Positions 35,903-58,783 of a DNA stretch of 64,000 bases are shown piece after piece. Each line of letters begins with the position of its first letter. Within the stretch, counting starts at the first letter, position 1. The DNA lies in assembly GCF_005160265.1 (NCBI RefSeq), contig NZ_CP039865.1:1264828-1328827 (forward strand), read 5' to 3'. The stretch comes from Phreatobacter aquaticus (GTDB lineage: Bacteria; Pseudomonadota; Alphaproteobacteria; Rhizobiales; Phreatobacteraceae). The notes under the pieces were generated by a model. The model was given only the letters and a program-made list of their open reading frames with translations, was not told where the DNA came from and did not search any database. Position numbers and translations under genes: made by a program.

Positions 35903-35937
35903 GGGCGGGCGGGCAGCCTCCCGCACAGGAGACCGAC

Positions 35938-36477: not shown

Positions 36478-36491
36478 GCCCGAAGGTCGCC

Positions 36492-37895: not shown

Positions 37896-38080
37896 CGTCC
37901 TGGCCGTCCATGGCAGCCGGGTCATGGCCCGCCACCAACGCAACGACAGGCCCTGCGGATATTCGATCGGCATGCGCGGTGACTTGAAACCCGTTTCTCC
38001 TCGGGCCTGAGAGAGCGGACCATCAAGTCCACGTGGTCGACAGACTCTTCCGAAATCTGGAGGAGGCTCAGATCAGGACG

Positions 38081-38144
38081 ATGATCCATTCGTCGGAGCA
38101 CGCCGCGCGTGTTCAGAATGGTCGGCAGCCAGCCCAGCCCGCGA
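38081..38144 (+). repeat. Left copy of a 64-bp direct repeat
   Basis: Matches 53081-53144 in the same orientation with six substitutions in 64 positions and no gaps. It contains, on the minus strand, the last codons and stop (W-A-G-C-R-P-F-stop) that resemble the end of the argE-like gene at the right copy. It lies in the 343-base gap between the second TRAP operon and the degenerate SDR; the rest of that gap shows no gene. Confidence 0.85.
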
Positions 38145-38238
38145 TCCTGTGCTCCGGAGCAACTCGGCGTGCGTCCCGCTTGCCGGGCGCGTAACTTTGG
38201 TAAATATCAAGTCACTCAACGTCCGCAGGATTTGCCCC

Positions 38239-39018
38239 GTGACGCCAAGGGACATCAACGCATCCAATGCCATCATTGTCGGCGGAACAGCCGGCATTGG
38301 TCTGGCAAGCGCCGAGGCGCTCCTGACGGTTGGCTTGCCGAGACTGGTCCTTGTCGGTCGTTCTCAAGCACGCGGTGAGGCGGTCTGCGATGATCTGAGG
38401 TCACGGTTTCCGGCCGCTGAGATCCATTTCACGGCCTGTGACGCGACAGATGCCGACAAACTGTCGGAAGCGGTCGATAGCGCCGCCGCCCTGATGGGCG
38501 GGATCGACATCCTGGTCAGCTGTGCCGGCGGCGATCCCATGCCGCAGCTGCTGCACACTATCTCGCTCGGCGACATCATGCCGACCATCAACATGATCGC
38601 GGGCGGCGTCATCCTGCCGGCGCGCGCTGTCCTGCCGCATATGACGGCCCGCGGTGGCGGCGTCGTGATCTGCGTCGCCTCCGATGCCGCCAAGGTCGCA
38701 ACTCCCGGCGAAACGGTCATTGGCGCCGCCATGGCCGCCATCACCATGTTCTGTCGGGGCATGGCCTGGGAGGCCAAGCGGCATGGCATCCGGGTCAACT
38801 GCCTGACACCGAGCGTGGTCGGGGACACACCGCTTTACGGACGGCTGAAGGAGGACGATTTCGCGCGCAAGCTGTTTGCCAAGGCTGAAACCATGGCGAG
38901 CCTCGGCATCGTGACCGCAGCCGATCTGGCGGCTGCCATCGTGTTCCTCGCAAGCCCCGCTGCAGCAAAAATGACGGGTCAGACGATCAGCATTACCGGC
39001 GGCATCTCGGCCGTCTGA
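38239..39018 (+). CDS. SDR-fold protein lacking the catalytic Tyr-Lys pair
   Basis: A 259-residue short-chain dehydrogenase homologue. The cofactor motif VGGTAGIGLASA and the CAGGD segment are present. At the active site the serine position is VASDAAKVATPGETV and the usual Y-x3-K reads I-x3-M (VIGAAMAAI), so the proton-relay residues are missing. The C-terminal FLASPAAAKMTGQTISITGG is normal. I start it at GTG 38239 because AGGA lies eight bases upstream and similarity begins there; the frame opens at 38149. It is convergent with the citE-like gene (five-base gap). It may be a non-redox binding protein or use a different mechanism. Confidence 0.82.
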   Translation: MTPRDINASNAIIVGGTAGIGLASAEALLTVGLPRLVLVGRSQARGEAVCDDLRSRFPAAEIHFTACDATDADKLSEAVDSAAALMGGIDILVSCAGGDPMPQLLHTISLGDIMPTINMIAGGVILPARAVLPHMTARGGGVVICVASDAAKVATPGETVIGAAMAAITMFCRGMAWEAKRHGIRVNCLTPSVVGDTPLYGRLKEDDFARKLFAKAETMASLGIVTAADLAAAIVFLASPAAAKMTGQTISITGGISAV

Positions 39019-39023
39019 TCGGG

Positions 39024-39866
39024 TCAGACGCGCGCGAGGATGCGGCGGGCGCGAGCGGCATGGGGGGCGTCCACCATCTGCCCGTCGACCACGGCGATGC
39101 CGGTCGTGGCGGATGCCAGGGCGTCGATCACGCGACGCGCCCAGGACAGCTCATCGGCTGTCGGCTGGAACACGCGGTTGATCACCTCGACCTGCGCCGG
39201 ATGGATCGCCGCCTTGGCGTCGAACCCGTCGCGCCGCGCCGCTTCGGCTTCAGCCTCCAGGCCCTGGAGATCACGCAGGTCGGTCCACACGGCATCGATG
39301 GCGAGAACACCGGCGCGCCGTGCCGCCATCAGGCAGAGGTCGCGCGCCAGCCGGAAGGGGCTGGAATAGGCCCCGTCGGCTTTTCTGTTGGTCGTGCTGC
39401 CAAGCTCGGCCGCAAGGTCTTCGCCGCCCCAGAGCATGCCGCGAAGGCGGGGATGCGCCCAGCGGCTCGCGGCCAGCGCCAGCACCGAACCGGTGGTCTC
39501 GGTCGCCACCACGAGAATGCCGGTCCGCCCTCGATCGAGCTCCCTCGGCGCGATCATGACATCGAGGCTGGCAAGATCGGCAGGCCCCTCTGTCTTCGGC
39601 AGCATGATGAAATCCGGGCGCAGCGGCACGATGGCTGCGAGATCGTCAGCACACCATTCCGTGGCCAGCCCATTCACCCGTACGGCTACCCTGGTCGAGC
39701 CTGCCGGCCGGTCGCGAAGGTGCTGCACCAGCATGGCGCGCGCTTCCGCCTTGGCCGATTGCTGCACGGCGTCCTCCAGATCGAGGATCACCACATCGGC
39801 CGCGCTGGCGACCGATTTTTCCAGCATCTTCGGCGATCCCGCCGGAACGAACAGGAGCGAGCGCAT
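39024..39866 (-). CDS. CitE/HpcH-family beta-hydroxyacyl-CoA lyase
   Basis: A 280-residue TIM-barrel lyase of the citrate lyase beta-subunit-like group. Signatures: RSLLFVPAGSPKMLEKS at the start, VILDLEDAV (metal and acyl-CoA site), VRVNGL, IMLPKTEG, MLWGGEDLAAELG and KAAIHPAQVEVIN. Such enzymes cleave citramalyl-, malyl- or HMG-CoA to acetyl-CoA plus a keto acid. With the MaoC, carboxylase and dehydrogenase genes upstream it parallels M. tuberculosis Rv2498c, which cleaves (R)-HMG-CoA in leucine breakdown (recalled knowledge). ATG 39866 is chosen over a TTG at 39881; the MaoC stop lies one base upstream of it. Confidence 0.88.
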   Translation of the reverse strand: MRSLLFVPAGSPKMLEKSVASAADVVILDLEDAVQQSAKAEARAMLVQHLRDRPAGSTRVAVRVNGLATEWCADDLAAIVPLRPDFIMLPKTEGPADLASLDVMIAPRELDRGRTGILVVATETTGSVLALAASRWAHPRLRGMLWGGEDLAAELGSTTNRKADGAYSSPFRLARDLCLMAARRAGVLAIDAVWTDLRDLQGLEAEAEAARRDGFDAKAAIHPAQVEVINRVFQPTADELSWARRVIDALASATTGIAVVDGQMVDAPHAARARRILARV

Positions 39867-39867
39867 G

Positions 39868-40329
39868 TCAGCCAGCGGCAATCGGGCGCATGCGCATCAG
39901 CGCCTGCCGGTCGCAGATTCCGCAGACGACCCCGTCTTGGTTGAGCGCTTCGTGGCGGAGCGTCACGATCCCCTCGCCCGGCCGCGACTTGCTGGCCCGC
40001 TTGTCGAGCACGGTCGTCCGGATGCGGATCGTGTCGCCCTCGAACAGCGGATGGGGGAAGCGCACGTCGCTCATCCCGAGATTGGCCACCGTCGTGCCGA
40101 AGGTCGTGTCGTTGACCGACATGCCGACCATCAGCCCCAGCGTGAACAGGCTGTTGACCAGCGGGCGCTTCCAGACGCTGTTGGCGGCCGCCACGTTGTC
40201 GATGTGGACCGGCTGGGTGTTCATCGTCAGCAGCGAGAACCACTTGTTGTCGGACTCGGTGATCGTCCGGGTCCACTCGTGCTCGAAGATCCGGCCCGGC
40301 TCGAATTCCTCAAACCACAATCCTGCCAT
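39868..40329 (-). CDS. MaoC-family enoyl-CoA hydratase
   Basis: A 153-residue single hot-dog domain. It carries the R-specific hydratase motif region TITESDNKWFSLLTMNTQPVHIDN, where the catalytic Asp and His are expected (ESD...PVHID), plus NSLFTLGLMVGMSV and DVRFPHPLFEGDTIR. This exact 150-residue type is the one found next to CitE lyases and MCC-like carboxylases. In that setting it would hydrate 3-methylglutaconyl-CoA to (R)-HMG-CoA (inference from the mycobacterial operon). It lies three bases after the carboxylase alpha stop and just before citE, so it is tightly coupled. Confidence 0.88.
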   Translation of the reverse strand: MAGLWFEEFEPGRIFEHEWTRTITESDNKWFSLLTMNTQPVHIDNVAAANSVWKRPLVNSLFTLGLMVGMSVNDTTFGTTVANLGMSDVRFPHPLFEGDTIRIRTTVLDKRASKSRPGEGIVTLRHEALNQDGVVCGICDRQALMRMRPIAAG

Positions 40330-40332
40330 GGC

Positions 40333-42300
40333 TCATTCCTCTCCGTCGGCCGTGATGTCGATCAGGGGTGCGCCGGAGGCGACAACGTCGCCGACCGCGC
40401 AGTGAATGCGGGCGATGCGGCCGTCGCGCGGCGCCGCCAGCGTGTGGACGAGCTTCATCGCCTCCATCTGCACGAGGCTGTCGCCCTTCGCGACCAGCGC
40501 GCCGGCCTCGACGAACAGGCCGGTCACGACACCGGGGAGCGGCGCGGTGACGTGATTGTCGCTGGCCGCATCCGCCGCCGCACCGGCATCGACATCGATC
40601 GCAAGCGAGACCTGGACATCGAGCGACAGCCCGCCCCGGCTGATCTGCACGCGCCCGCCATCGACCAGGGTGGCAGCCGGAATGGTTCCCGACACCTCCG
40701 TCCCGTCCTCGAACCGAACGACGGGAGCATCGGTTTCAAGCCGGACCATGACATCAAGCTCGCCATAGTCATCCTGGAGCCGAAGCTCGACGGTGGCGGC
40801 CCGTCGCTTGCCCATCACACGGAAGGCACTTCGCCTCTGCCAGGGGCTGTCGCCGGCCGGGTCCAGGCCGTGCGCCCAGGCAAGCGCTGCCTGCGCGCGC
40901 AGAGCGCGCAGCTGCTCCGCATCGGGCGTCCAACCGTCCGGAAATTCGCGCGCTAGGAAGCCGGTCGTCAGGCGTCCTGCCGCGAAGTCCGGTCTGGCGA
41001 CGCAGGCTCGCAGAAAGCCGGTATTCGTGCCGATCCCGAGAACGGCCAGATCATCGAGCCCGGTTGCGAGGGCCGAGACGGCATGTTCGCGGTTCGCGCC
41101 ATGGACGATCAGCTTGGCGATCATGCTGTCATAATGCGGCCCGACCTCGGACCCCGCGGCTATGCCTGTATCGAACCGCACGCCACGCGGTACATGAACG
41201 GCCTGGATGCGGCCGGTCGCCGGCTGATAGCCGCGATCGGGCCGCTCGGCCGCAATCCGGGCTTCGATCGCATGGCCCTGCAGCCTGATCTGGTCCTGTC
41301 CAGCCGGCAACGGCAGACCGGCCGCCACACGGATCTGCCATTCCACGAGATCGATGCCGGTCACAGCCTCGGTCACCGGGTGCTCGACCTGCAGCCGCGT
41401 GTTCATCTCGAGGAAGTAGGGCTCGCTGCCGCCTGCTTCCATGATGAATTCGACGGTGCCGGCGGATGTGTAGCCGATGGTCCGGCCGAGCGTCAGGGCG
41501 CGATCGAACAGCTTGGTTCGCACAGCCTCGGACAAATGGGGCGCGGGAGCTTCCTCGAACACCTTCTGGTTGTTGCGCTGGACCGAACAGTCGCGCTCGA
41601 ACAGGTGGACAAGATTCCCATGGGTATCGCTCATGAGCTGAACTTCGAGATGCCGCGGATTGCCGATGAATTTCTCGAGCAGCACCGTATCGTCGCCGAA
41701 GGCCCCCTTGGCCTCCGCTTTGGCAGCCTGCAGTGCCGCGGCAAAACCCTCCGGCCCGTCGACGCGCCGCATACCGCGTCCGCCGCCGCCCGCTGACGCT
41801 TTGATCAGCACGGGGAACCCAATACGTGCCGCCTGCTCGGCGAGCGCGGCCGCCGACTGATCGGCACCGAGATAGCCCGGCACGGTGGGCACTCCGCCCG
41901 CCTCGGCGATCTTCTTCGCCTCGATCTTCGATCCCATGGCGGCAATTGCCACCGAGGTGGGGCCGATGAAGATCAGACCGGCTTCTTCGCAGGCGCGCGC
42001 GAAACCGGCATTCTCCGACAGGAAGCCATAGCCTGGGTGGATCGCGTCGGCACCGCTGCGGCTGGCGGCATCGAGAATGGCGGCGATGCTGAGATAGCTC
42101 TCGGCAGCGGAGGCAGGCCCGATGCGCAGCGCCTGATCGGCTTGGCGCACGTGCAGGGCATCAGCATCGGCGTCCGAATAGACGGCAACGCTCGACAGGC
42201 CCAGCCGCTTGCAGGTGCGGATCACCCGGCAGGCAATCTCGCCTCGGTTGGCAATGAGAATCGTTCTGATCGGACGCGGAGCAGTTGCGAATTCGGTCAT
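40333..42300 (-). CDS. Acyl-CoA carboxylase, biotin carboxylase / biotin carrier subunit
   Basis: A 655-residue alpha subunit. The N-terminal biotin carboxylase domain starts ILIANRGEIACRVIRTCKRLG and has the ATP-grasp segment KASAGGGGRGMRRV; FLEMNTRLQVEHPVTE follows. The C-terminal biotinyl domain has MEAMKL with the biotinylated lysine at K616, and a BT-like linker lies between. The size and linker fit methylcrotonyl-, geranyl- or propionyl-CoA carboxylases. ATG 42300 is two bases after the beta-subunit stop. With an MCC-like beta subunit, 3-methylcrotonyl-CoA is the best-supported substrate, but assays are lacking. Confidence 0.93.
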   Translation of the reverse strand: MTEFATAPRPIRTILIANRGEIACRVIRTCKRLGLSSVAVYSDADADALHVRQADQALRIGPASAAESYLSIAAILDAASRSGADAIHPGYGFLSENAGFARACEEAGLIFIGPTSVAIAAMGSKIEAKKIAEAGGVPTVPGYLGADQSAAALAEQAARIGFPVLIKASAGGGGRGMRRVDGPEGFAAALQAAKAEAKGAFGDDTVLLEKFIGNPRHLEVQLMSDTHGNLVHLFERDCSVQRNNQKVFEEAPAPHLSEAVRTKLFDRALTLGRTIGYTSAGTVEFIMEAGGSEPYFLEMNTRLQVEHPVTEAVTGIDLVEWQIRVAAGLPLPAGQDQIRLQGHAIEARIAAERPDRGYQPATGRIQAVHVPRGVRFDTGIAAGSEVGPHYDSMIAKLIVHGANREHAVSALATGLDDLAVLGIGTNTGFLRACVARPDFAAGRLTTGFLAREFPDGWTPDAEQLRALRAQAALAWAHGLDPAGDSPWQRRSAFRVMGKRRAATVELRLQDDYGELDVMVRLETDAPVVRFEDGTEVSGTIPAATLVDGGRVQISRGGLSLDVQVSLAIDVDAGAAADAASDNHVTAPLPGVVTGLFVEAGALVAKGDSLVQMEAMKLVHTLAAPRDGRIARIHCAVGDVVASGAPLIDITADGEE

Positions 42301-42302
42301 GA

Positions 42303-43904
42303 TCACATCCGGTAGACGGGACGATTGCCCGAGATCGGCGGCTGCGTCGCGCCCGCGGCGAGGCATAGCGATAGCACCGAGCGGGTATCGGTCGGCGCGA
42401 TGATGCCGTCGTCCCAGACCCGGGCCGTGCAGAAATAGGGGTTGGATTTCTCCTCGAACTGGCGCCGGAGCTCGGCCTCGTAGGCCGCAAGTTCCTCGTC
42501 CGTCGCCGGATGTCGTGAGATGCTGGCGCGCCTGAGATCCATCAGAACGGACGAGCCGACATCGGGGCTCATGCCACCGAGGCGCGCGTTCGGCCACATG
42601 AACATGAAGCGCGGCCGGAAGCCGCGCCCGCTCATGCCGTAATTGCCGGCGCCATAGGAGCCGCCCGTCACCAGCGTGTAGCGAGGTACCCGCGTGTTCG
42701 ACACGGCATAGACGAGCTTCGCCGAGTTCTTGGCGATGCCGCCGCGCTCGGCGTCGGAACCGACCATGAAGCCGGTCGTGTTCTGCAGGAACAGGATCGG
42801 GATGTTGCGCTGGTCGCAGAGCCCGATGAAGTGCACGCCCTTCAGCGTGCCATTGGAGAACAGGACCCCGTTGTTGGCGATGATGCCCACGGGAAAGCCG
42901 TCGATATGGGCGAAGCCGCAGAGCAGCGTCTCGCCGAATTGCGGCTTGAACTCGTGGAACTCGCTGCCGTCGACGATCCGCGCAATGATCTCGCGCTGGT
43001 CGAGCGGTCGCGTCAGGTCGGCGCCGACAATGCCCGGCAGTTCGGCTGCATCATGCAGCGGAGCGCGGGATGCGATGCGGGCGGCCGATATCGGCTGCGG
43101 ATAGCTGAGCGCGCCGACGATATCCCGCAGCTTGGCAATCGCCTGGCGCTCGTCGGCGGCGTAATGGTCGGAGACGCCGGACACGGTCGTGTGCATCAGC
43201 GCGCCGCCCAGCGTGTCGCGATCGACGACCTCGCTGATTGCCGCGCGCACGATCTGCGGGCCGCCCAAATGGATCGATGAATTGCCGGCCACCATAACGA
43301 ACTCGTCCGACAGGACCGGGATATAGGCGCCGCCGGCGGTCGACTCGCCGAACACCGCGGCGAGCTGCGGAATGCCCTCGGCCGACATCCGGCACTGGCG
43401 GTAGAAGGTGCCGCCAAAATGCTCCTGGTCGGGAAACACGTCCTCGAGATTCTGGAGGTTCGCCCCGCCGCAATCGACCAGATAGATCACCGGCAGCCGG
43501 TTCTCCTGGGCGATGTCCTGAGCGCGGATGTGCTTCCGCACGGTCTCCTTGAAGAACGATCCGCCCTTCACCGTCGCATCATTGGCGATGATCATGCAGG
43601 TCACGCCGCGCACCGTGCCAATGCCGGTGACGATGCCCGCCGAGGGCAGGCCGTTGTTGTAGAGTCCCCAGCCGGCGAGCGGCGACAGTTCCAGGAACGG
43701 CGTCAGCGGATCGACAAGCAGGTCGATGCGGTCGCGCACCAGGATCTTGCCGCGCTCGTGGTGGCGCCCGATCATCTTCGCGCCGCCGCCGGCAAGCGCC
43801 CAGTCGAACTTGGCGTTCATGTCGGCCAGCAGGGCGTCATAAGCCTCGCTGTTGGCGCGGTAGATCGGATCGGCCGGATTGCATCGGGTCGTGAGGACAG
43901 CCAT
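42303..43904 (-). CDS. Acyl-CoA carboxylase, carboxyltransferase (MCC-like beta) subunit
   Basis: A 533-residue carboxyltransferase. The N half has the acyl-CoA site GGSFFKETVRKHIRAQDIAQENRLPVIYLVDCGGA and FGESTAGGAYIPVLSDE; the C half has QNTTGFMVGSDAERGGIAKNSAKLVYAV, RGFRPRFMFMWPNARLGGM and the end VWDDGIIAPTDTRSVLSLCLAAG. The whole is closer to methylcrotonyl/geranyl-CoA carboxylase beta chains than to propionyl-CoA ones (AccD1-type in mycobacteria). It forms the carboxylase holoenzyme with the alpha subunit downstream. A 74-base gap separates it from the upstream ABC transporter gene; a hairpin is not evident there, so one transcript is likely. Confidence 0.92.
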   Translation of the reverse strand: MAVLTTRCNPADPIYRANSEAYDALLADMNAKFDWALAGGGAKMIGRHHERGKILVRDRIDLLVDPLTPFLELSPLAGWGLYNNGLPSAGIVTGIGTVRGVTCMIIANDATVKGGSFFKETVRKHIRAQDIAQENRLPVIYLVDCGGANLQNLEDVFPDQEHFGGTFYRQCRMSAEGIPQLAAVFGESTAGGAYIPVLSDEFVMVAGNSSIHLGGPQIVRAAISEVVDRDTLGGALMHTTVSGVSDHYAADERQAIAKLRDIVGALSYPQPISAARIASRAPLHDAAELPGIVGADLTRPLDQREIIARIVDGSEFHEFKPQFGETLLCGFAHIDGFPVGIIANNGVLFSNGTLKGVHFIGLCDQRNIPILFLQNTTGFMVGSDAERGGIAKNSAKLVYAVSNTRVPRYTLVTGGSYGAGNYGMSGRGFRPRFMFMWPNARLGGMSPDVGSSVLMDLRRASISRHPATDEELAAYEAELRRQFEEKSNPYFCTARVWDDGIIAPTDTRSVLSLCLAAGATQPPISGNRPVYRM

Positions 43905-43978
43905 GGGTCAGACCTGCTGAGGGAAAGAGGCGCGGTCGCAGCGGTACGGCCGGCGCAATGCGCTGTTGGCGACGCGGG

Positions 43979-44776
43979 TCATCCAAGCCACCGCTTGCGC
44001 CGCCTGTAGTGCTTGATGTTGCGAAACCGGTCGCGGCCCTCGGCACCCGAGAAGCCAAGATAGAATTCCTTGACGTCCTGGTTGCTTTCCAACTGCTCGC
44101 GCGTCCCGTGGAGCACGATGCGGCCGGCCTCCATCACATAGCCGTAGTCGCACTGGCGGACCGCCGCGCGGGCGTTCTGCTCGACCATCAGGATGGTCAG
44201 GCCTTCCTCGCGGCGAATTCGTCCGATCGTTTCGAACAGTTGCTCGACCAGCAGGGGCGCCAGGCCCATCGACGGCTCGTCGAGGATCAGGATCCGCGGC
44301 CGGGCCATCAGGGCGCGGCCGACCAGCAGCATCTGCATCTCGCCGCCGGACAGATAGCCGGCGGTGCGTTGCATGAGCGCTGGCAAGGCCGGGAAGTAAT
44401 TGAAGATCTTCTCGAGATCGGCCTTCACCGCCCGGCTGTCGGCGCGCAGATGCGCGCCGACCATGAGGTTCTGCTCCACCGTCAGGTGCTCGAGGACCTT
44501 GCGCCCCTCGAGAACCTGAACGACGCCGCGCCGGAAGATCGCCGCTGGGTCCTCATGCCGGATGTCGTCGCCGTCCAGCAGCACCTGGCCAGCCGTCACC
44601 TCGCCCAATTCGGCGTGGAGCAGGCCGGAAATGGCCTTGAGCGTCGTCGTCTTGCCGGCGCCATTGGAGCCAAGCAGGACGACCATGCTGCCGTCCGGAA
44701 CCTCAAGGCTGACAGACCGCAGCACCTGGATGACCCCGGCATAGACGACATCGACATTGGTCAGCGACAGGCCCAT
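43979..44776 (-). CDS. LIV-type ABC transporter ATP-binding protein (LivF-like)
   Basis: A 265-residue ABC ATPase. Walker A is GSNGAGKTTTLK, the Q-loop region VVQVLEGRKVLEHLTVEQNL, the signature YLSGGEMQMLLVGRAL and Walker B ILILDEPSMGLAP, then the H-loop MVEQNA. The lack of an extra domain and the order in the operon match LivF. The C-terminal tail is basic (KHYRRRKRWLG). It powers uptake with LivG-, LivH- and LivM-like proteins and the binding protein next to it. The acyl-CoA synthetase in the same operon implies a carboxylic acid rather than an amino acid as ligand. Confidence 0.93.
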   Translation of the reverse strand: MGLSLTNVDVVYAGVIQVLRSVSLEVPDGSMVVLLGSNGAGKTTTLKAISGLLHAELGEVTAGQVLLDGDDIRHEDPAAIFRRGVVQVLEGRKVLEHLTVEQNLMVGAHLRADSRAVKADLEKIFNYFPALPALMQRTAGYLSGGEMQMLLVGRALMARPRILILDEPSMGLAPLLVEQLFETIGRIRREEGLTILMVEQNARAAVRQCDYGYVMEAGRIVLHGTREQLESNQDVKEFYLGFSGAEGRDRFRNIKHYRRRKRWLG

Positions 44777-44800
44777 GGCGCTTCTCAGCCTTTCCTGCCG

Positions 44801-46000
44801 CTACCACTTCGCCAGGTCGGGAACGGTCAGCCAGCCGCCGCCAAGCGGCACGATCTGGCCGTTGCGGACGACCTCGGCCGTCGCCCGGATCTGACCGATC
44901 GGGAACGGTGCCGTCGTGTCGAAGTCGAGCGTCGGCAGGGCTCCGAGCAGTTCCTGTTCGGTGAAGACATTGTCGAGCAGGGCCTGACGCATGGCCTCGC
45001 CGGTGACGTTGTCGCGACCGACCTTGGCGACCGCCCGCTCCAGCACGCGCAGCGCGAGAAGCGCCTGCGACGCGGACTGCGCGGTGATCAGGCCCCAGGT
45101 CCCCCCATCTTTCCGATAGCGCATGAAGATGTCGCGCAGCGGCAGGCTCTCCTGGGAGGGCGAGGCGAACGAGAAGGCTGAGTAGAAGCCCTCCATGTCG
45201 GCCATGCTGGTACCCTTGGCGGCCTCGGTCAGGCCATTGTGGGTCGAGGTGATCACCGGGATCTTGACGCCAAGCTCCTTGAGAGCGCTCGCCGTCGCCT
45301 GGACCTGAGCCGTCGTACCGCCCACGACGATGACATCCGCGCCTTGGGCGACAATCGCGCGCACGCTGCTCGACAGGGACACAGGCGCCGTATCCGCCCA
45401 TTGCGTCTCCATCATCTGGAAGCGCGCCGGATAGGTCTTGGCCAATTGATGCAGGCCGTTCAGCTGGTCGACGAAGCCGGCCTGATTCTGTGTGCTGATC
45501 GAGGCGATCTTGAGCACGCTGCCCTTCTGCTCCTGCAGGCGGGACAGAAGGCCGGCAAATTCATGGCTGTAGGTCGGGCGGATCGAATAGTGCCAGCCGT
45601 TCTCCGCCCAGACGAGGCCGACCATGGCAGTGCCGATGATCATCGGAACCTTGTCGGTCGGCAGACGCCGCATGAGGGTCGTCAGGTCGGGAGAGCCGAA
45701 GCCCAGATGCATGATCGGGCGTTCGGAGCGCAGGATCGACGGCCAGGTGCGCGCGATGACGGCTGCGTCATAGCGCATGTCGTGGATGCTGAGCTTGACG
45801 GTCACCCCGAGGCGCTTGCCCACCTCTTCGTTCCACCAGTCAGCGATGGTCTTCACGCCCGACATGGCATTGGGCATGACATTGGCGAACGGCCCCGAAA
45901 AGTCGGCGCTGACGCTCATCACATAATCGGCCGCGCTTGCCGGCAGGCTTGCGGCCAGCCAAATCGCCGCGGCGATCGCCTTCGTCTTCACCTTGAACAT
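44801..46000 (-). CDS. LIV-type ABC transporter substrate-binding protein
   Basis: A 399-residue periplasmic binding protein with a signal peptide (IAAAIWLAASLPASA/ADYVM). It belongs to the Peripla_BP_6 group: VSADFSGPFANVMPNAMSGVKTIADWWN at the start of lobe 1, SRLQEQKGSVLKIASISTQNQAGF and DVIVVGGTTAQVQATASALKELG in lobe 2. GGAGG precedes ATG 46000. It sits between the LivF-like ATPase and the LivM-like permease. This branch is commonly found with an AMP-binding synthetase; the ligand is unknown, probably a hydrophobic or branched carboxylate. Confidence 0.92.
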   Translation of the reverse strand: MFKVKTKAIAAAIWLAASLPASAADYVMSVSADFSGPFANVMPNAMSGVKTIADWWNEEVGKRLGVTVKLSIHDMRYDAAVIARTWPSILRSERPIMHLGFGSPDLTTLMRRLPTDKVPMIIGTAMVGLVWAENGWHYSIRPTYSHEFAGLLSRLQEQKGSVLKIASISTQNQAGFVDQLNGLHQLAKTYPARFQMMETQWADTAPVSLSSSVRAIVAQGADVIVVGGTTAQVQATASALKELGVKIPVITSTHNGLTEAAKGTSMADMEGFYSAFSFASPSQESLPLRDIFMRYRKDGGTWGLITAQSASQALLALRVLERAVAKVGRDNVTGEAMRQALLDNVFTEQELLGALPTLDFDTTAPFPIGQIRATAEVVRNGQIVPLGGGWLTVPDLAKW

Positions 46001-46050
46001 GTTGTCCTCCCAGCTCTCCGGTTGATCCGGACGTCTTCTCGCCTGCCCGC

Positions 46051-47100
46051 TCAGTTGCGCGGGAAAGGCCAGATCTGAAATGCGTTGCGAAGCACGGCCC
46101 AGCGATGCGCCAGGCCGCGCGGCTCGAAGATGAGCGCGAGCAGGATGCAGCCGCCGAGAATGATGGAGGTCAGCGCGAACAGCATGCCGCCGCTGCCGGA
46201 GCCGGCCTGCATCAGCGTGTTGGCGACCTTGTGCAGGCCTTCCTGCAGGACGGTGATGAACACCACGCCGAGGATGGGCCCGAGGCGGCTGTGCAGGCCG
46301 CCAACGATCAACATGCCGAGGTACCAGACGGACGCGAACAAGGTGAAGCTCGCCGCGGTGACGAATTGCAGGAAATAGGCAAGGCAAGCGCCGGCCACGC
46401 CGGCAAACAGCGAGCCGACGAAGAAGGCCATCAGCTTCACCCGCATCACGGGGATACCCATGACTTCCGCGGCGATGTCGTTGTCCCTGACGGCCATCAT
46501 CGCGCGCCCGAAGCGCGAATGCTGCAGCCGGAACGCCGAGATGGTCAGCAGGGCGACCAGCGCCAGCGTGAAGTAATAGAAGCCCGTTGGCGTGCCGAGG
46601 TCGGCTCCGAACAGGGTGAGCGGTTCCACCGGCATGCCCGCCAGGCCGCCGAGCCAGCTCGCCGGCAGCGCATAGATCACGATCGGGAACATCGCCTGGG
46701 CGGCAAGCGTGGTCAGCGCCAGATAGAGGCCCTTCACCCGCACCGCCGGAAGGGCAAAGAGGATCGACACGCAACCGGCCGCCAGCGCCGCCAACGGGAT
46801 CACCACGAAGACCGGTTGGCCATAGCTCGACAATTTGGCGGCCGCGAAGGCGCCGATACCGACGAAGGCCGATTGCGCGATGTTGATCTGTCCGGCCATG
46901 CCGACCGTGACATAGAGGCCGTAGACCGCCATCAGCGTGATGAACATTTCGCTCGCAACGCCAAGGAGATAGGCGCCTGCGAACAGCGGCGCGCACAGGA
47001 GGCCGAGGGCCAGGGCCGAAGCCCAAATCCGGGACCGCAGGGTCTTGAGGACCCGCGTTTCCGCCGCATAACTCTCGAAGTGGATACCGGTCGGCAGCAT
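46051..47100 (-). CDS. LIV-type ABC transporter permease (LivM-like)
   Basis: A 349-residue inner-membrane permease with eight to ten spans. The typical segment MAGQINIAQSAFVGIGAFAAAKL, the ATPase-contact EAA-like loop RAMMAVRDNDIAAEVMGIPVMRVKLMAFF, and the final VLQEGLHK...LIFEPRGLAHRW are present. ATG 47100 is preferred (AAGG eight bases upstream); a GTG at 47106 overlapping the livH stop is the alternative. It pairs with the LivH-like protein to form the channel. Confidence 0.92.
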   Translation of the reverse strand: MLPTGIHFESYAAETRVLKTLRSRIWASALALGLLCAPLFAGAYLLGVASEMFITLMAVYGLYVTVGMAGQINIAQSAFVGIGAFAAAKLSSYGQPVFVVIPLAALAAGCVSILFALPAVRVKGLYLALTTLAAQAMFPIVIYALPASWLGGLAGMPVEPLTLFGADLGTPTGFYYFTLALVALLTISAFRLQHSRFGRAMMAVRDNDIAAEVMGIPVMRVKLMAFFVGSLFAGVAGACLAYFLQFVTAASFTLFASVWYLGMLIVGGLHSRLGPILGVVFITVLQEGLHKVANTLMQAGSGSGGMLFALTSIILGGCILLALIFEPRGLAHRWAVLRNAFQIWPFPRN

Positions 47101-47102
47101 GG

Positions 47103-48002
47103 TCACAGCCTTTCGATCCGCTTCCAGCCGAACAGCCCCTGGGGCCGCACGAGCAGGACCGCGATCATGACCGCGTAGGGCAACACGCCGGACGCGGCGC
47201 CGTTGGTGAGAGGGTCGAGATAGGCCATGGCGAGCGCCTCCCCGATGCCGATCAGCACGCCGGCCAGCGGCGCGCCGCGGATCGATTCAAGCCCGCCCAG
47301 CAGGGCGACCGGAAGCGCCTTGAAGCCGATATGCGCGACCTCGATCGACACCACGCGTCCCGACAGCAGCACGATGGCTGCGGCCGTGGCGACCACCGTT
47401 CCGAGGATCCATGCCGTTGCGATTGCCCCGCGTACCGAGACACCGAGCGACATGGCGGTGCGATGGTCCTCGGCAACCGCCGCAAGGCGCAGGCCGTAGC
47501 GGGTGCGCGTGAAGAAGGCATGCAGGCAGAGAGCCAGTAGAAGGGAGAACAGTCCGCCGATCAGCAGCGGCGTGCTGATCAGGAACGGCCCCAGCCGGAA
47601 GGCGCCCTCGGGCAGGATCGCCGGAAAGGCGCGCGTCTCGGCGGTCCAGATCAGCTGCGCCGTGCCGCGCAGCACGATCAGCAGCGCGACGCTCGCCATG
47701 AAGATCGCAAAGGCCGGCTGGCTGATCAGCGGGCGGAACACGAAGCGCTCGAGCACCAGGCCGAAGCCGATACAGGCGGCGAGCGTCAGCGCAAGGCTCA
47801 CCACCAGCGGCACCTCCCATCCGACCGCCTTCAGACCGAGCGTGAAGGTCCACAGGAACAGCGCGCCGAAAACCAGCACCTCGCCCTGCGCCAGATTGAC
47901 GATGCGCGAGGCGCGATAGATCACGACGAAGGAAATGGCGACGAGACCGTAGACCAGCCCGACGAGCGACCCTTCAATCAGGATTTGGATCAGCTTGATC
48001 AT
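47103..48002 (-). CDS. LIV-type ABC transporter permease (LivH-like)
   Basis: A 299-residue inner-membrane permease with about eight spans. The LivH signature is ASRIVNLAQGEVLVFGALF near the N-terminus, and the EAA-type loop GLRLAAVAEDHRTAMSLGVSVRGAIATAW contacts the ATPases. The C-terminus ends with VLPYAVMIAVLLVRPQGLFGWK. ATG 48002 overlaps the stop of the acyl-CoA synthetase by four bases, so the transporter and ligase are translationally coupled. Confidence 0.92.
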   Translation of the reverse strand: MIKLIQILIEGSLVGLVYGLVAISFVVIYRASRIVNLAQGEVLVFGALFLWTFTLGLKAVGWEVPLVVSLALTLAACIGFGLVLERFVFRPLISQPAFAIFMASVALLIVLRGTAQLIWTAETRAFPAILPEGAFRLGPFLISTPLLIGGLFSLLLALCLHAFFTRTRYGLRLAAVAEDHRTAMSLGVSVRGAIATAWILGTVVATAAAIVLLSGRVVSIEVAHIGFKALPVALLGGLESIRGAPLAGVLIGIGEALAMAYLDPLTNGAASGVLPYAVMIAVLLVRPQGLFGWKRIERL

Positions 48003-49957
48003 GCCGGTTCCCCGATCCGGTTGATGGCCACGGGGGCGTTCAGCTTGCTGGTATTGCCGTCCTGGTAGCGGACCTCGATCTCGACGCGGATCTCGGCATG
48101 GTCGGCATACAGAGCGTCGATGATCCCGCTGTAGCGATCGTGGATCTGGGCGCGGCGCAGCTTGCGTGAGCGGGTCAGCTCGGATTCGTCGGCGTCGAGC
48201 TCCTTCGGCAAATTGGCGAAGGCGGCGATGCGGGCCCCCGGATCGAGAAGGCGGTTGACCCTGGCGATCGCCTGGTCGACCTCGCTGCGCACTTCGGCAA
48301 GCTGGCTGAGCTCGGGGAACGTGCCGTAGGCCAGACCCTTCAGTTCAGCGAACCGGCCGGCAATCTCGGAATCGACATTGATCAGCGCCACCACGCGCTC
48401 GCGCGTCTCGTCGCCGATCACGATGGCATCGCGGATCAGCGACGCCGCGCGCAAATGGTTCTCGATGAACTGCGGCGGATAGGACTGGCCGCCTTTCAGG
48501 TTGCGCAGGTCCTTCAGCCGGTCGAGGAAGACGAGTTCCCCCGTCTCGTCGATGCGCACCGCGTCGCCGGTCTGGTAGCCGTCCTCGACGCGGCCGAGGT
48601 CGACGGTCGCCTCCGGGTCGTTGAGATAGCCGAGGAAGGCCATGACCTTGAGCCGCAACTGGCCCTTCTCATCGACGAAGGCCTCGATCGGCTCCGCAAT
48701 GGACGGGTCGGACGGCATCAGGCTGCCCAGCGAATGCGCATTGCGGCTGCCGGGCCGGTGGGTCGAGATGAGGCCAAGTTCGGTCGAGCCATAGAGATTG
48801 CCAAGCGGCACGCCGAAGGCGCGGAAGCGTTCAAAGAGCTCGGCCGACAAGCCCGCACCACCCGACAGGACCGCCCGTGCGCGGGTCAGGCCCAGGAGAT
48901 CGCGGACGCCCTTCAGGACGAGCACGTCGGCGATCCGCCACAGGAGCGCATGCCACGGCCCCCGTCCGGTGCCGCGCACCCGGTTCAGTCCCTGCTGCAA
49001 TCCCCAGGCATAGAGGGCCTGGCGGAAGCGACCGGCCGCCATCATGCGCGCCTCGATACCGGAGGCCTGCATCTCCCACTGGCGCGGCGTGAACATCAGG
49101 AATTCCGGGCCGATCTCGCGCAGGTCGCTCTGCACCATGTCCGGCTTCTCGGCGAAATGGACGATCATCGGCGCGAGCAGCGGCAGCGCGATGCCGAAGA
49201 ACTGCTCGGCGGCCCAGGCGGGCGAGATGTAGGAGAGGTAGTTGCCGCCGGGACGGACGTTCAGCGATCCCATCAGCCGATGCGCATTGTCGAGAATGAA
49301 GGCATGCGACAGGACCGCCGCCTTCGGGCGCGACGTGGTGCCCGACGTGTAGCAATAGGCGGCCGGCTCGCTGGCCTTGCCCTCGGCAATACGGGCATCG
49401 ACCCAGGCATTCGACTCGAAGATCTGGCCTTGCTCGACCAGCGCCTTGTAGGACACGAGCCTCGGCTCGTCGTAGGACCAGAGCCCGCGCTCCTCGACGA
49501 ATACGACGCGACGGATGCGGTCGATGGTCGCGAGACAAGCCAGGATCTTGTCGATCTGCTCCTGGTCCTGGCCCAGCGCCATCGTCGCGCCGGAATGGTC
49601 AAGCGCGTAGAGAAGCTCGTCGGCTGGCGCGTCAGGATAGACGCAGACGGTGATCGCGCCGATCGACTGCACCGCCAGTTCGGTGATGAACTGTTCCGGC
49701 GTGTTCTCCGAGATCAGTGCCACAACCTCGCCGCGACGAAGACCGAGCGCCGCAAAACCGCGCGCCACGGACCGCACCTCATCCAGGACCTCGGTCCAGG
49801 TCCGGACATGCCAGATGCCGGCCTTCTTGAATTTCAGCGCGGGATCGGCGGCAAACTCGGCCGCGTTGCTCGCCAGCAATTGCGGCAGCGTGCGGCCTTC
49901 CGAGCGGCGCAGGCCCTCCGGCGCGGGATCGGCCCGGAAGATGCGGGGGGCGATCAT
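47999..49957 (-). CDS. AMP-binding acyl-CoA synthetase embedded in the ABC transporter operon
   Basis: A 652-residue long-chain-type ligase of the ANL superfamily. The P-loop reads CYTSGTTSRPKAAVLSH (residues 202-218), with serine where most enzymes have glycine (TSGTTGxPK). Other motifs: GNLYGSTELGLISTH, DGYQTGDAVRI, FLDRLKDLRNLKGGQSYPPQFIEN. The last 60 residues contain the unusual ELTRSRKLRRAQIHDRYSGIIDALYAD, shared by ligases of this operon type. It is translated from inside the LivG gene (four-base overlap) and into LivH (four-base overlap). This placement suggests that the imported acid is activated as it enters the cell (inference). Confidence 0.9.
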   Translation of the reverse strand: MIAPRIFRADPAPEGLRRSEGRTLPQLLASNAAEFAADPALKFKKAGIWHVRTWTEVLDEVRSVARGFAALGLRRGEVVALISENTPEQFITELAVQSIGAITVCVYPDAPADELLYALDHSGATMALGQDQEQIDKILACLATIDRIRRVVFVEERGLWSYDEPRLVSYKALVEQGQIFESNAWVDARIAEGKASEPAAYCYTSGTTSRPKAAVLSHAFILDNAHRLMGSLNVRPGGNYLSYISPAWAAEQFFGIALPLLAPMIVHFAEKPDMVQSDLREIGPEFLMFTPRQWEMQASGIEARMMAAGRFRQALYAWGLQQGLNRVRGTGRGPWHALLWRIADVLVLKGVRDLLGLTRARAVLSGGAGLSAELFERFRAFGVPLGNLYGSTELGLISTHRPGSRNAHSLGSLMPSDPSIAEPIEAFVDEKGQLRLKVMAFLGYLNDPEATVDLGRVEDGYQTGDAVRIDETGELVFLDRLKDLRNLKGGQSYPPQFIENHLRAASLIRDAIVIGDETRERVVALINVDSEIAGRFAELKGLAYGTFPELSQLAEVRSEVDQAIARVNRLLDPGARIAAFANLPKELDADESELTRSRKLRRAQIHDRYSGIIDALYADHAEIRVEIEVRYQDGNTSKLNAPVAINRIGEPA

Positions 49958-50748
49958 GCCGCATCCCCCAGATAGGCATCGATCACCGCCGGATGGGTGC
50001 GCACCTCGTCGGGCGTGCCGCAGGCGATGACCTCGCCGAAATCGATCACCGTCACCCGGTCGGAGATCGACATCACGACTTCCATGTCGTGCTCCACCAG
50101 CACCACCGGAATGCCAAGGCCCTCGCGGATATCCAGGATGAACCGCGCGAGATCCTCCTTCTCCTCGTTGCTCATGCCGGCCATCGGCTCGTCCATGATC
50201 AGGACCGAGGGTTCGAGCGCGATGGCGCGGCCGAGATCGACGCGCTTGCGCATGCCGTAGGACATGTCGCCGACAGGCGTGTGGCGCAGCTGTTCGAGTT
50301 CGAGGAATTCGATGATCTTCTCGGCGCGCGCGGCGAACTCTTCTTCCTCGCGGCGCGTCGGTCCCCACCAGACAAGCGCGGCAAACGGACCCGTCGACAT
50401 CCGCAAGTGAAAGCCCGACAGGATGTTCTCCCGCGCCGTCATCGAGGGATAGGTCTGGATGCCCTGGAAGGTCCGGCTGATGCCGAGGGCTGCCCTCTTG
50501 TGTGGCGGCAGGCTGGAAATGTCCTTGCCCAGGAATCGCACCGCGCCCGATTGCGGCCGGTAGAATCCCGACAGGCAGTTGAGCAGGCTGGACTTGCCCG
50601 CGCCGTTCGGACCGATCACGGCATGGATCTCGCCCCGCTCCACGCTGAGCGACACGGACTTCAGTGTCTCGACGGCACCGAAACGAAGGCAAAGAGCGTT
50701 CGCCTCAAGAACCGTCGTCCCTTCCGATGGAATGGGTACGAGGGTCAC
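49954..50748 (-). CDS. LIV-type ABC transporter ATP-binding protein (LivG-like)
   Basis: A 264-residue ABC ATPase. Walker A is GPNGAGKSSLLN, the Q-loop SRTFQGIQTYPSMTARENIL, the signature MSYGMRKRVDLGRAIALEP, and Walker B VLIMDEPMAGMS; the H-loop is LVEHDMEVV. Signature LSGGQ is replaced by MSYGM, as in other synthetase-linked LivG proteins. The start is GTG 50748 with GGGAG six bases upstream. A 70-base AT-rich gap separates it from the acyl-CoA dehydrogenase gene. Confidence 0.92.
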   Translation of the reverse strand: MTLVPIPSEGTTVLEANALCLRFGAVETLKSVSLSVERGEIHAVIGPNGAGKSSLLNCLSGFYRPQSGAVRFLGKDISSLPPHKRAALGISRTFQGIQTYPSMTARENILSGFHLRMSTGPFAALVWWGPTRREEEEFAARAEKIIEFLELEQLRHTPVGDMSYGMRKRVDLGRAIALEPSVLIMDEPMAGMSNEEKEDLARFILDIREGLGIPVVLVEHDMEVVMSISDRVTVIDFGEVIACGTPDEVRTHPAVIDAYLGDAA

Positions 50749-50818
50749 GACGTCTCCCTTCAGGGACGCGGGTCAGGCGCCTCTGTTGTCTTCTTGTTTT
50801 TTTGACTGCTATGCGTCG

Positions 50819-51982
50819 TCAGCCGAAGCTGACGTCCAGCCCGCACTCGCGTGCGATCAGGAGTGTCTGGATCTGCGAGCTTCCGTCGCCGATCGTGCAG
50901 ATGCGGTTGTCGCGCAGATAGCGGGACGGCGCACAATCATCCATGAAGCCCCAGCCGCCATGCACCTGGATCGCCATGTTGGCGACCTCGGAGCCGGTTT
51001 CCGTCGCATGGAGCTTGGCCATGGACAGGGCCATCAGGTCGTCCTTGCCCTGATCGACGCCCCACGCGGCGCGATAGGTGACAAGACGCGCGCTGTCGAC
51101 CTTGAGCGCCATCCGGGCGACCAGGTCCTGGATCAGTTGCAGGCGACCGATCGTGCCGCCGAACGCCTTGCGCTCCTTGGCATAGGTGATCGAATGGTCG
51201 AGGCTCGCCTGGGCCAGCCCCAGCGAGCAGGCGGCGAGGAAGACGCGAGCGGCCTGATAGCCCTTGTGCAGCACCCAGCGGCCGGCATGCGGCTTGCCGA
51301 CGATGGCGCTGTCGGGCAACTGGCAATCATCGAGATAGAGCGGTCGCGTGTCCGACGAGCGCCAGCCCATCTTGCGGTACTTCTCGCCCTGGCTGTAGCC
51401 GGCGGTGCCCTGCGGGACCAGGAACAGCGTGTATTGCTTGTGCTCGGCCTCGCGCGGGCTGGACACCGCGAGGATCAGCGCGAAGGATGAGATATCGGTG
51501 CCTGGATTGGTGATGTAGGCCTTTTCGCCGGTCAGCGACCACAGCCCGTTGCCGAGCGCATTGGCGCGCGTCTTGAAGCCAGCCGTGTCACTGCCCGCAT
51601 CCGGCTCGGTGCCGGCGATGGAGCAGATCTTCCGGCCACTGATGATGTCCGGCAGCCATTGGCGCTTCTGCTCCTCGGTGCCGTAGCGCTGCAGTGTCAG
51701 ACCAGTCGCCATCGACACCATGGCCGAGACCGCGAGCGATTGGTCGGCCCGGGCGACTTCCTCGATGGCCAGAACGGCGTCGAACACGCCAAGCCCCATT
51801 CCGCCATATTCCTCGGCGAACGGGATCGACATCACACCGAGCTCACCGAGCTTCTTGAAGAGATCCGTCGGGAAGATGGCGTCGCGATCGAGTTGCTCGG
51901 CGCGCGGCGCGATTTCCGCTTGTGCGAAGCTGCGCACGCGCTCCTGCAAGGCCAGCTGGTCGGGCGTCAGATCGAAATTCAC
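50819..51982 (-). CDS. Acyl-CoA dehydrogenase with Asp at the catalytic-base position
   Basis: A 387-residue FAD flavoenzyme that would introduce the alpha,beta double bond into an acyl-CoA. FAD- and substrate-site segments: SMATGLTLQRYGTEEQKRQWLP, AGTEPDAGSDTAGFKTRA, TGEKAYITNPG, ERKAFGGTIGRLQ and IQVHGGWGFMDD. The catalytic glutamate normally found in YEG/IGEG near the C-terminus is aspartate here (D366 in TIGDGSSQIQ), and the helix-G position used by isovaleryl-CoA dehydrogenase also lacks Glu (AARVFLAACSLG). Start is GTG 51982 with GGGAG upstream. It is the first enzyme gene after tetR and corresponds in position to FadE19 of the mycobacterial leucine operon. Confidence 0.9.
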   Translation of the reverse strand: MNFDLTPDQLALQERVRSFAQAEIAPRAEQLDRDAIFPTDLFKKLGELGVMSIPFAEEYGGMGLGVFDAVLAIEEVARADQSLAVSAMVSMATGLTLQRYGTEEQKRQWLPDIISGRKICSIAGTEPDAGSDTAGFKTRANALGNGLWSLTGEKAYITNPGTDISSFALILAVSSPREAEHKQYTLFLVPQGTAGYSQGEKYRKMGWRSSDTRPLYLDDCQLPDSAIVGKPHAGRWVLHKGYQAARVFLAACSLGLAQASLDHSITYAKERKAFGGTIGRLQLIQDLVARMALKVDSARLVTYRAAWGVDQGKDDLMALSMAKLHATETGSEVANMAIQVHGGWGFMDDCAPSRYLRDNRICTIGDGSSQIQTLLIARECGLDVSFG

Positions 51983-52058
51983 GGCGTTCTCCCTAAGACT
52001 TGTCTTGCAGCCCCTATTCCGGGGTCAGCACATGCTTTTTGGCTCCGCTGCGGGTCTC

Positions 52059-52700
52059 CTAGTCGTGCAACGTGGCGGATAGTCTGTCGCTGGGCTTGGC
52101 CGCCAGCCCACGGGTCGCCATCTCGATGAGAGCGTCGGCGACGTCGGCGGCCGTCCAGGGCCCTTCGGGCGAGTACCACTTGGTGACCCAATGGACGGCG
52201 CCGAGCAGCATGAAGATCGCGATCTTCGGATTCAGCGGCAGGATGCTGCCGTCGGCGATGCCTTCCTCGACAAGTCGCCGCATGCGCTTCTCGAACTCGT
52301 CGCGCAGCCCGATGATCACCTTGGCCTGGGCGCCGGTCAGGGCATTCTCTTCCAGGATCAGGACCGGCACGCCCATGGCGCCGATCATCTCGCGCAGATA
52401 GGTCGACATGCCGATCTGGATTTTCTCAAGACCGGTCCGGCCAGACGCCTCGCCCTGGTCCATGCTCTCGCGGGCAATCTCCATCGCCTCTTCGTGGCAC
52501 GCGTAGAGCAGGTCCTGCTTGCTGGGCACATAGCGATAGAGAGCGGCCTTGGTGACGCCGAGGCGCTCTGCGACGTCGTCGAGCGAGGTGCCGTGGCTGC
52601 CGCGGCGATTGAAGAACCGCGCTGCCTCCCGGATGATCGCCTTGCGCTTGGTCTCAAGCTGCTCGTCCCGATTGGGAAGGGCATTGCCCCAACGCGACAT
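52059..52700 (-). CDS. TetR-family transcriptional regulator
   Basis: A 213-residue regulator. The DNA-binding domain spans about residues 15-65 (KRKAIIREAARFFNRRGSHGTSLDDVAERLGVTKAALYRYVPSKQDLLY, a classical TetR_N helix-turn-helix). The C-terminal domain is helical with a long ligand cavity and resembles regulators of fatty-acid or acyl-CoA genes. GGAG precedes ATG 52700. It lies 76 bases upstream of the dehydrogenase on the same strand and heads the twelve-gene catabolic unit; triple repeats in its promoter region are the likely operator. The effector is probably an acyl-CoA, by family analogy. Confidence 0.92.
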   Translation of the reverse strand: MSRWGNALPNRDEQLETKRKAIIREAARFFNRRGSHGTSLDDVAERLGVTKAALYRYVPSKQDLLYACHEEAMEIARESMDQGEASGRTGLEKIQIGMSTYLREMIGAMGVPVLILEENALTGAQAKVIIGLRDEFEKRMRRLVEEGIADGSILPLNPKIAIFMLLGAVHWVTKWYSPEGPWTAADVADALIEMATRGLAAKPSDRLSATLHD

Positions 52701-52750
52701 CGTCTGAACTCCGCTTGAGGGGCTCCTGGCCCGCGCTGGCCACAAGTCGC

Positions 52751-52800
52751 GTGACTTTCACGACACGCTAATGACTGACACATCATTAAAGTGACTGTCA
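52751..52800. promoter_or_regulatory. Three 10-bp repeats at exact 20-bp spacing upstream of tetR
   Basis: GTGACTTTCA (52751-52760), ATGACTGACA (52771-52780) and GTGACTGTCA (52791-52800) share RTGACTKWCA and are separated by ten bases each. The phase is two helical turns, so three bound dimers or one multimer would lie on one DNA face. The minus strand holds TTGACA (52797-52802 read backwards) next to the last copy. This region, 52701-53080, has no gene. Confidence 0.6.
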
Positions 52801-53080
52801 AGTTACCGGATGCCGCCACAGAGGGCGGACCGAAGCTCGCCACGGCCGTCGAGACGCCGAAGGCGAAGGGCTTGGATGTCCACGGATTGGCATGGGAGTT
52901 CTCGAGAGCCGCGGACGACGAAGCCAGGTTGACCTGCCGCTGACTTGTCATCCAGCTGCGGTTAGAGCCTCGGCGGGTTTTGCGCGGGACTGCGCGGCGG
53001 TAGCCGGGGGCATATCGCGCCACGTGCCCGAAGCCGATGCGGACTGCAGATCGGAAGGGCTGTCGGCAAGCGGTGCTTTG

Positions 53081-53144
53081 ACGATCCACTCGTCGGAGCA
53101 CGCCGCGCGTATTCAGAATGGTCGGCAGGCAGCCCAGTCCGTGA
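53081..53144 (+). repeat. Right copy of a 64-bp direct repeat, overlapping the argE-like 3' end
   Basis: Same orientation as 38081-38144, 58 of 64 bases identical, no gaps. The argE-like stop codon (minus strand, 53113) is in the middle of the repeat, so half is coding and half is downstream of the gene. Confidence 0.85.
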
Positions 53145-54228
53145 GGCGGATGAGGAAGGCGTCGGCTGCGTCGAGTTGGGAGCGCTCGATCCACTCGTCA
53201 GGCTGGTGGGCCTGCGCGATCGATCCCGGCCCGCACACCACCGCGGACATGCCGGCGGCCTGGAAGAAGCCGGCCTCAGTGCCGAAGGGCATCGCGAAGG
53301 GCGGGCCGATGCCGCCGAGAGCGGCGGCCACACCCAGAGCCGACGCGTCGCCGGCAGCCGCCAGGGGCGGAACATGGATATCCCGGCACGTCGACTGGCG
53401 GACCTCCGAAGGCAATGCACGCGTCAGATAGGCTGCGACCAGCTGCTCGATTTCACCGGCATCCTGTGGCGTTACCGGCCGGAACTCCCACACCACTTCG
53501 CAGGCGGACGGCACAATGTTGATCGCCGATCCGCCCTGGATCCGGCCGATATTGACCGTGGTCTGATCGATTCCTGCTCCGGCGCGGTGTCCGACGGATT
53601 TCAGGAAGCTGACGAAATCGGCGGCAGGATAGATTGCACTCGCACCGGCGCTTGGATCGCTGGAATGCGCCGCCTTTCCGTCGAAGCGTGTACGGAAGCC
53701 GAGAAAGCCACGATGGCGATCGCCGAGACGCATCCCGGTCGGCTCGCCGATGATGGCGAGCTCAGGCTTCTCCTCATGGGTCAGCAGATCCTCGATCAGG
53801 CGCGGTACCCCGAGGCAGCCGACCTCCTCATCATAAGACAGGGCGATGTGGATCGGCCGGGCGAGGTCTGCTGCCGAAAAGCCGCCCGCGGCGGCAAGGC
53901 AGGCCGCAACAAAGCCCTTCATATCGGCGACGCCGCGGCCGTAGAGCTTGCCATTGCGCTCGGTCAGACGGAACGGGTCGGACGACCAGTTCTGATCATC
54001 CACCGGCACCACATCGGTATGGCCCGAGAGCACGACCCCGCCGGGCCCCTTCGGCCCGAAGCTTGCGAGGATATTGGCCTTGCTCCGGCCGTCGTCGTAG
54101 CTCAACCGGACGCGCGCGCCGATGCCGTCGAGGCGATCGGCAACGCGGTGGACGAGCGTCAGGTTCGACCGGTTCGACGTCGTGTCCAGGCCTACCAGCT
54201 CCTCAAGCAGGGCGATTGTCGTGGTCAT
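53113..54228 (-). CDS. argE: M20 acetylornithine deacetylase-like (ArgE family) deacylase
   Basis: A 371-residue zinc peptidase of the M20/ArgE group that removes an N-acyl group from an amino acid. Metal motifs: VLSGHTDVVP, GRGVADMKGF, the catalytic Glu in YDEEVGCLG, EPTG, and HQPDEWI near the C-terminus; the dimer domain includes GKAAHSSDPSAGASAI. The length is normal for ArgE. In this operon (amino-acid dehydrogenase, exporter, AlaX) the substrate may be an N-acyl amino acid other than acetylornithine; the housekeeping role is not certain. It is the last gene of an AraC-headed minus-strand unit, six bases after the dehydrogenase. Confidence 0.85.
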   Translation of the reverse strand: MTTTIALLEELVGLDTTSNRSNLTLVHRVADRLDGIGARVRLSYDDGRSKANILASFGPKGPGGVVLSGHTDVVPVDDQNWSSDPFRLTERNGKLYGRGVADMKGFVAACLAAAGGFSAADLARPIHIALSYDEEVGCLGVPRLIEDLLTHEEKPELAIIGEPTGMRLGDRHRGFLGFRTRFDGKAAHSSDPSAGASAIYPAADFVSFLKSVGHRAGAGIDQTTVNIGRIQGGSAINIVPSACEVVWEFRPVTPQDAGEIEQLVAAYLTRALPSEVRQSTCRDIHVPPLAAAGDASALGVAAALGGIGPPFAMPFGTEAGFFQAAGMSAVVCGPGSIAQAHQPDEWIERSQLDAADAFLIRLTDWAACRPF

Positions 54229-54234
54229 GGCCGG

Positions 54235-56234: not shown

Positions 56235-56244
56235 CGCGCCGCCC

Positions 56245-56970: not shown

Positions 56971-57067
56971 GCGATCTCACCTTGCTGCGGCCCCGGCGGG
57001 GCCTTGGCGTGCAGGCGAGACTGGCGTGGTTCGGCATGCGGCTATTGGCGGAAATTGAGCAGGCGGG

Positions 57068-58658: not shown

Positions 58659-58783
58659 ATCGTGCGCTGCACAGGCGCTGTTTAACCGATCATCGCCGTC
58701 TCGGCAATCGGGGCTTGCAAGTTGCCGGAGAGATTGGGAGGTATCGGGCGACACGCTGCGGGAGACGGCGGGAGGGGGTCTGC

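Follow-up and report, generated by a model that had tools for sequence, protein, structure and literature searches.

Cases are described in which insertion sequence (IS) elements stand between the copies of a duplicated segment, and IS-associated duplications and deletions without a target duplication have been documented (PMC11708052). Two other described systems come close to the locus considered here: integrase-dependent islands at gene 3' ends and Campbell-type (single-crossover) insertions. We examined a 64,000-nucleotide stretch of Phreatobacter aquaticus DNA (contig NZ_CP039865.1, positions 1,264,828 to 1,328,827), referred to as the window, in which a 15-kb catabolic module lies between two copies of a 64-bp direct repeat, one of them at the 3' end of an argE-like gene. 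The original prediction read this layout as a cassette integrated at a gene 3' end, and named duplication of the argE end by homologous recombination as an alternative. The alternative fitted better than integration at an attachment (att) site, and we regard as an even call a history in which recombination between argE alleles placed an argE 3' end on either side of the module and both sides were later eroded.

The repeat is real and its origin appears to be of an ordinary kind. Positions 38081-38144 and 53081-53144 matched at 58 of 64 bases, ungapped and in the same orientation; an automated repeat search returned 65 nt (38080-38144 and 53080-53144) at a spacing of 15000. This is far above chance: Markov shuffling of the window, done 20 times, gave best ungapped matches of 32-37 of 64 to the right copy. 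A whole-genome search (one contig of 4,974,952 bases) with 101 bases around the right copy found the sequence in two places only at E <= 0.001, and a dispersed repeat was ruled out at the sensitivity used. Both copies read on the minus strand. The stop codon of argE (53113-53115) falls inside the right copy, and the left copy holds 31-32 bp of an argE 3' end, including a stop codon, plus 32 bp beyond it. Read in frame with argE, the C-terminal residues are TDWAACRPF in the right copy and AGWAGCRPF in the left, each followed by the stop; the left ending agrees with the predicted one.

Six of the 64 bases differ between the copies, three in codons and three past the stop. The codon differences were compared by eye with argE ends from Bosea-genus genomes; in 11 of these the listed match extends to the argE end, ten of the 11 loci were fetched, and the tenth end, too diverged, was excluded from the count. 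The left-copy base was found in 6, 6 and 8 of the nine ends and the right-copy base in 3, 3 and 1. Because the left base is commoner among Bosea ends, the left copy has the look of a different argE allele rather than a decayed right copy. The pattern across codon positions would be unexpected for a decayed copy of the present argE; it would fit another allele or an altered right copy.

Matches to the left copy were found in 35 of 397 genomes of the order, its own included, at E <= 0.01. Elsewhere the aligned stretches were shorter than 50 bases, and we take them as probable chance matches; two of the four loci opened (L198 and L200) appear, by reading, to lie in an outer-membrane-efflux-like gene. 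The right copy matched four of 67 Bosea-genus genomes at E <= 0.01, with one match at argE, in the coding part only. Other identities for the repeat were tried and rejected. The half past the stop had no score against either IS remnant described below, and no GTTRRRY core of an integron attC site was seen by eye in the 64 bp. That same half gave a 14-base match to PDEWI codons when read as a second argE coding piece, which was suggestive for the left copy against one Bosea argE (14 of 2000 shuffles) and weak otherwise. A second argE end within the right flank was matched in score by 57 of 1000 shuffles.

Three features of the junctions went unnoticed in the original prediction: an IS3-family remnant at 37980-38075 (IS-A), an IS3-family 3' end at 52930-53011 (IS-B), and an inversion of the SDR gene next to the left repeat. 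IS-A lies on the minus strand in the transposase sense, with its 5' terminus at the right (CTCAGATCA, 38067-38075), so that the terminus stops at 38075, 5 bases short of the left repeat. It is internally deleted, and no coding stretch is left. The 5' end (38034-38071) was 84% identical to the 5' ends of two annotated IS elements (L180 and L181) and 87% identical to a decayed copy in the same genome (L186); the 3' end (37978-38015) was 82% identical to the 3' end of a copy in another species of the genus (G004) and 77% to L180. Positions 2-36 and 1155-1192 of a 1207-base element correspond collinearly to these two ends. In gapped alignments against four IS-A copies, none of 300 shuffles reached the score in any case; the G004 alignment alone spans both ends, and the L180 and L186 coordinates cover the 5' end. 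The flanks of IS-A carry no clear target duplication, with GG alone in common.

IS-B, also on the minus strand, retains the end of orfB and the terminal sequence TGACCTGCC, the rest having been lost; the last residues of orfB are its sole remaining coding sequence. It was 85% identical over 68-69 bp to another element (L182; E 4e-18), and its scores were reached by 0 of 300 and 0 of 400 shuffles. Against plasmids it returned 254 records at E <= 1 (best 1e-12), with an IS3-family transposase in eight of the 15 rows listed. Against IS-A the IS-B segment did not score (L180: 188 of 400 shuffles), and the two are different elements. IS3-like terminal sequences are present at both junctions, with strong support for IS-B and moderate support for IS-A. 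A transposase reading frame is absent from both, and the two rve-domain matches in the genome fall outside the window. Two related observations were made elsewhere. In G004, an internally deleted IS-A remnant (L121:14273-14618) is found 1.4 kb from the module, on its TetR side, and in one Bosea-genus genome (G411, L176) an IS3-type orfA/orfB-like gene pair directly follows argE, about 130-1715 bases on (by eye).

Between the repeats lie the SDR gene on the plus strand and a minus-strand twelve-gene acyl-CoA/carboxylase/LIV-transporter operon with TetR first; domain searches agreed with the predicted content. The claim that this is one module was likewise borne out: the carboxyltransferase was found at E <= 1e-220 in six of the 397 order genomes, including two of 12 in the genus, which supports a discrete, patchily distributed 15-kb block. 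In G004 the whole cluster matched 39026-52714 in window order with the SDR gene inverted relative to the window, and in a member of another family (G024) it matched without the HpcH gene, with SDR reading with the operon; in both, SDR is the last gene. A third genome (G065) has an SDR of 45% identity only, which also reads with its operon. Since SDR is co-directional with the operon in all three loci that have one beside the cluster, it is inverted in the window. An in-place inversion is the simplest account, because SDR reads oppositely and only 5 bp separate its stop from that of HpcH. The second breakpoint falls somewhere from 38145 to about 38238, no more than some 95 bp away from the left repeat, so that 64 bp is probably a trimmed repeat length. 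The stop codons of SDR and HpcH, at the inversion junction, are linked by a perfect 6-bp inverted repeat (GTCTGA/TCAGAC) at 39010-39032.

The favoured history runs as follows. Operons acquired separately would make up a mosaic within a variable part of the chromosome, where a Bosea-like argE operon and a catabolic module shared within the genus or family came to adjoin. The module most likely entered by recombination with DNA bearing another argE allele; a single crossover of this kind would leave direct repeats at both ends without an integrase. The extra argE copy may then have been eroded, by IS-A and its internal deletion on the outside and by the SDR inversion on the inside, until 64 bp was left. 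The left 64 bp would be what remains, stranded, of a second argE 3' end that was once longer, and IS-B would have inserted, and later decayed, at the other junction.

Several results weigh against this history. No donor or intermediate with a longer left argE copy was found, and joining the outer flank of the left copy across IS-A gave no significant extension of the repeat (outer part, 148 of 1000 shuffles). Campbell-type repeats are normally hundreds of bases long and here measure 64, so that erosion must be assumed. A repeat centred on the stop codon of a gene is also the expected look of an att site. IS-A is short, and its 5' match alone was weak against all plasmids (E 0.2). Regarding the inversion, no SDR gene was found beside the clusters of G194 (a 9-kb contig) and G015, which do not inform on orientation, and no similarity was detected between 38145-38238 and the spacer of G004 (153 of 300 shuffles), so that the breakpoint can be placed only within that stretch.

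Site-specific integration, in which an element went into the argE 3' end, its attL and attR being the two copies, and the integrase was lost or acted in trans, accounts well for the position at the stop codon, and the direct orientation, the gene 3' end with its frame restored and the module between the copies all suit it. Direct repeats at both ends and a repeat completing a gene 3' end are indeed present. However, the genome's ten phage-integrase-domain (PF00589) matches, any of which might serve such a reading from elsewhere, include none in the window, so that the predicted absence of an integrase inside the element held. The 64-bp repeat had no match in the G004 and G024 module loci (L120, L121, L128, L129), where the module sits at another genomic place than in the window, and no significant direct repeat surrounds the G004 module; at those loci the element was thus not accompanied by the same att core. 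The repeat is abutted by IS3 remnants, its edges fall at an IS end and near an inversion breakpoint, and the 9% divergence of the copies would need differing attP and attB sequences or much elapsed time. Alignment with relatives, proposed as a check, showed that the context of the module does differ between genomes, so that the proposed refutation by a context common to all relatives does not apply. The empty site sought by the same check was found in none of 11 other genus members, 397 order genomes (left copy) or 67 Bosea-genus genomes, an absence that is not strong, as the sample includes no second strain of the species. With IS3 remnants at both junctions, an inverted SDR, repeat-free orthologous modules and no empty site found, cassette integration was not favoured, and we consider it doubtful.

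A fuller version, in which the 3' end of a horizontally acquired argE served as the attachment site and the module is an integrase-less mobilisable island, moved in trans by another integrase of the genome and later invaded by IS3 elements, is distinctly unlikely. If the att reading were true, a protein-gene 3' end would be added to the known insertion sites, together with a catabolic island moved in trans.

A third explanation is that the argE end travelled with IS-A: a copy of IS-A next to argE would have transposed imprecisely (one-ended) and taken 64 bp of flanking DNA to the left of the module. Only 5 bp separate the left repeat from the IS-A terminus, and rearrangements caused by IS3 elements are known (PMC11708052). 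However, no IS-A terminus was found by the right copy, where 53012-53080 scored weakly with the IS-A copy of the genome (one of 25 tests; 6 of 400 shuffles) and the neighbouring element is IS-B; we judge this route very unlikely. Movement of the module by flanking IS copies as a composite transposon is a remote prospect: IS3-family remnants stand near both ends in the same orientation, and an IS-A remnant also lies near the G004 module, but the window's remnants come from different elements rather than from one IS present twice, the repeats themselves contain no IS sequence, and IS-A has no clear target duplication.

The SDR oxidoreductase of the module (38149-39018, plus strand, probable start near 38239; Pfam adh_short) is followed on the minus strand by an HpcH/HpaI-CitE-type C-C lyase (39024-39881; PF03328), a MaoC-type hydratase (39868-40329; PF01575), a biotin carboxylase with a biotin carrier domain (BCCP; 40333-42306; PF00289, PF02786, PF02785 and PF00364, its length taken from G004 and G024) and an acyl-CoA carboxyltransferase (42303-43904; PF01039; 90% in G004 and 83% in G024). 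LivF, a periplasmic binding protein, LivM, LivH, an AMP-forming ligase and LivG occupy 43979-50748, assigned by domain searches and the relatives' clusters. An acyl-CoA dehydrogenase (50819-51982; PF00441/PF02770/PF02771) and the TetR regulator, the first gene of the operon (52059-52745; PF00440, PF17932), complete the set. The lyase scored 208.6 bits against the RipC model (cut-off 375) and the hydratase 156.7 bits against the RipB model (cut-off 340), both below the NCBIfam cut-offs. Judged by this combination of ligase, dehydrogenase, biotin-dependent carboxylase, RipB-like hydratase, RipC-like lyase and LIV-type transporter, the operon (39024-52745) possibly encodes a variant isovalerate-like degradation pathway with a CitE-type lyase as its last enzyme. 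Upstream of TetR, 20 bases (52788-52807) are kept in G004 at 19 of 20 positions and are likely a TetR operator. In the spacer between TetR and argE, 52833-52925 matched 58329-58420, left of a tRNA-Arg gene, at 70% over 93 bases.

The argE-like deacylase belongs to a Bosea-like operon, identified by domain searches and DNA comparison, that also includes an ELFV dehydrogenase, EamA, an AlaX-like gene and AraC (53113-57898, minus strand). Where intact in Bosea-genus genomes, this operon was 80-88% identical in DNA, and 29 of the 67 genomes matched somewhere in it at E <= 1e-100. At the argE end, the match stopped at or before the argE stop in nine of the ten fetched loci and 11 bases past it in one. 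In six of the ten, the next gene after argE encodes one conserved protein of ~444 residues, MFS-like by reading. The dehydrogenase beside argE (54235-55302) scored best against the tryptophan dehydrogenase ScyB (405 bits, cut-off 600). To the left of the module lies a plus-strand TRAP transporter operon (34907-37895) with DctP at 34907-35902 (PF03480) and DctM at 36492-37895 (PF06808). It was not nearby in any of the ten Bosea argE loci, one of which ends 375 bases after argE at a contig edge; 34943-37895 matched one other genus member (G002) at 85%, with different sequence downstream. A left-flank peptide searched by tblastn returned nothing useful. From a tRNA-Arg (CCG) gene onward (58582-64000) the DNA is common to most genus members, and the stretch to the left of this gene varies among the compared genomes. 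An island at the tRNA-Arg end was considered and rejected, no second copy of that end being present in the window.

The locus serves as a worked example: when IS remnants and the gene order of relatives are checked, a short direct repeat that resembles an att site at the end of a gene can turn out to be left over from an older duplication. With integrase-dependent islands at gene 3' ends it shares a direct repeat, one copy that completes a gene 3' end and an accessory module between the copies; unlike them, the window holds no integrase, no empty site was found, the repeat does not accompany the module elsewhere, and its edges are set by IS-A and probably by the inversion. Like IS3-family rearrangement scars, it has IS ends at the junctions, no clear target duplication, a duplicated flank, and nearby deletions and an inversion; in contrast to them, its remnants are heavily decayed and derive from two different elements, so that a cause and a later visitor look alike. 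With Campbell-type insertion it shares direct repeats of a common sequence on both sides without an integrase.

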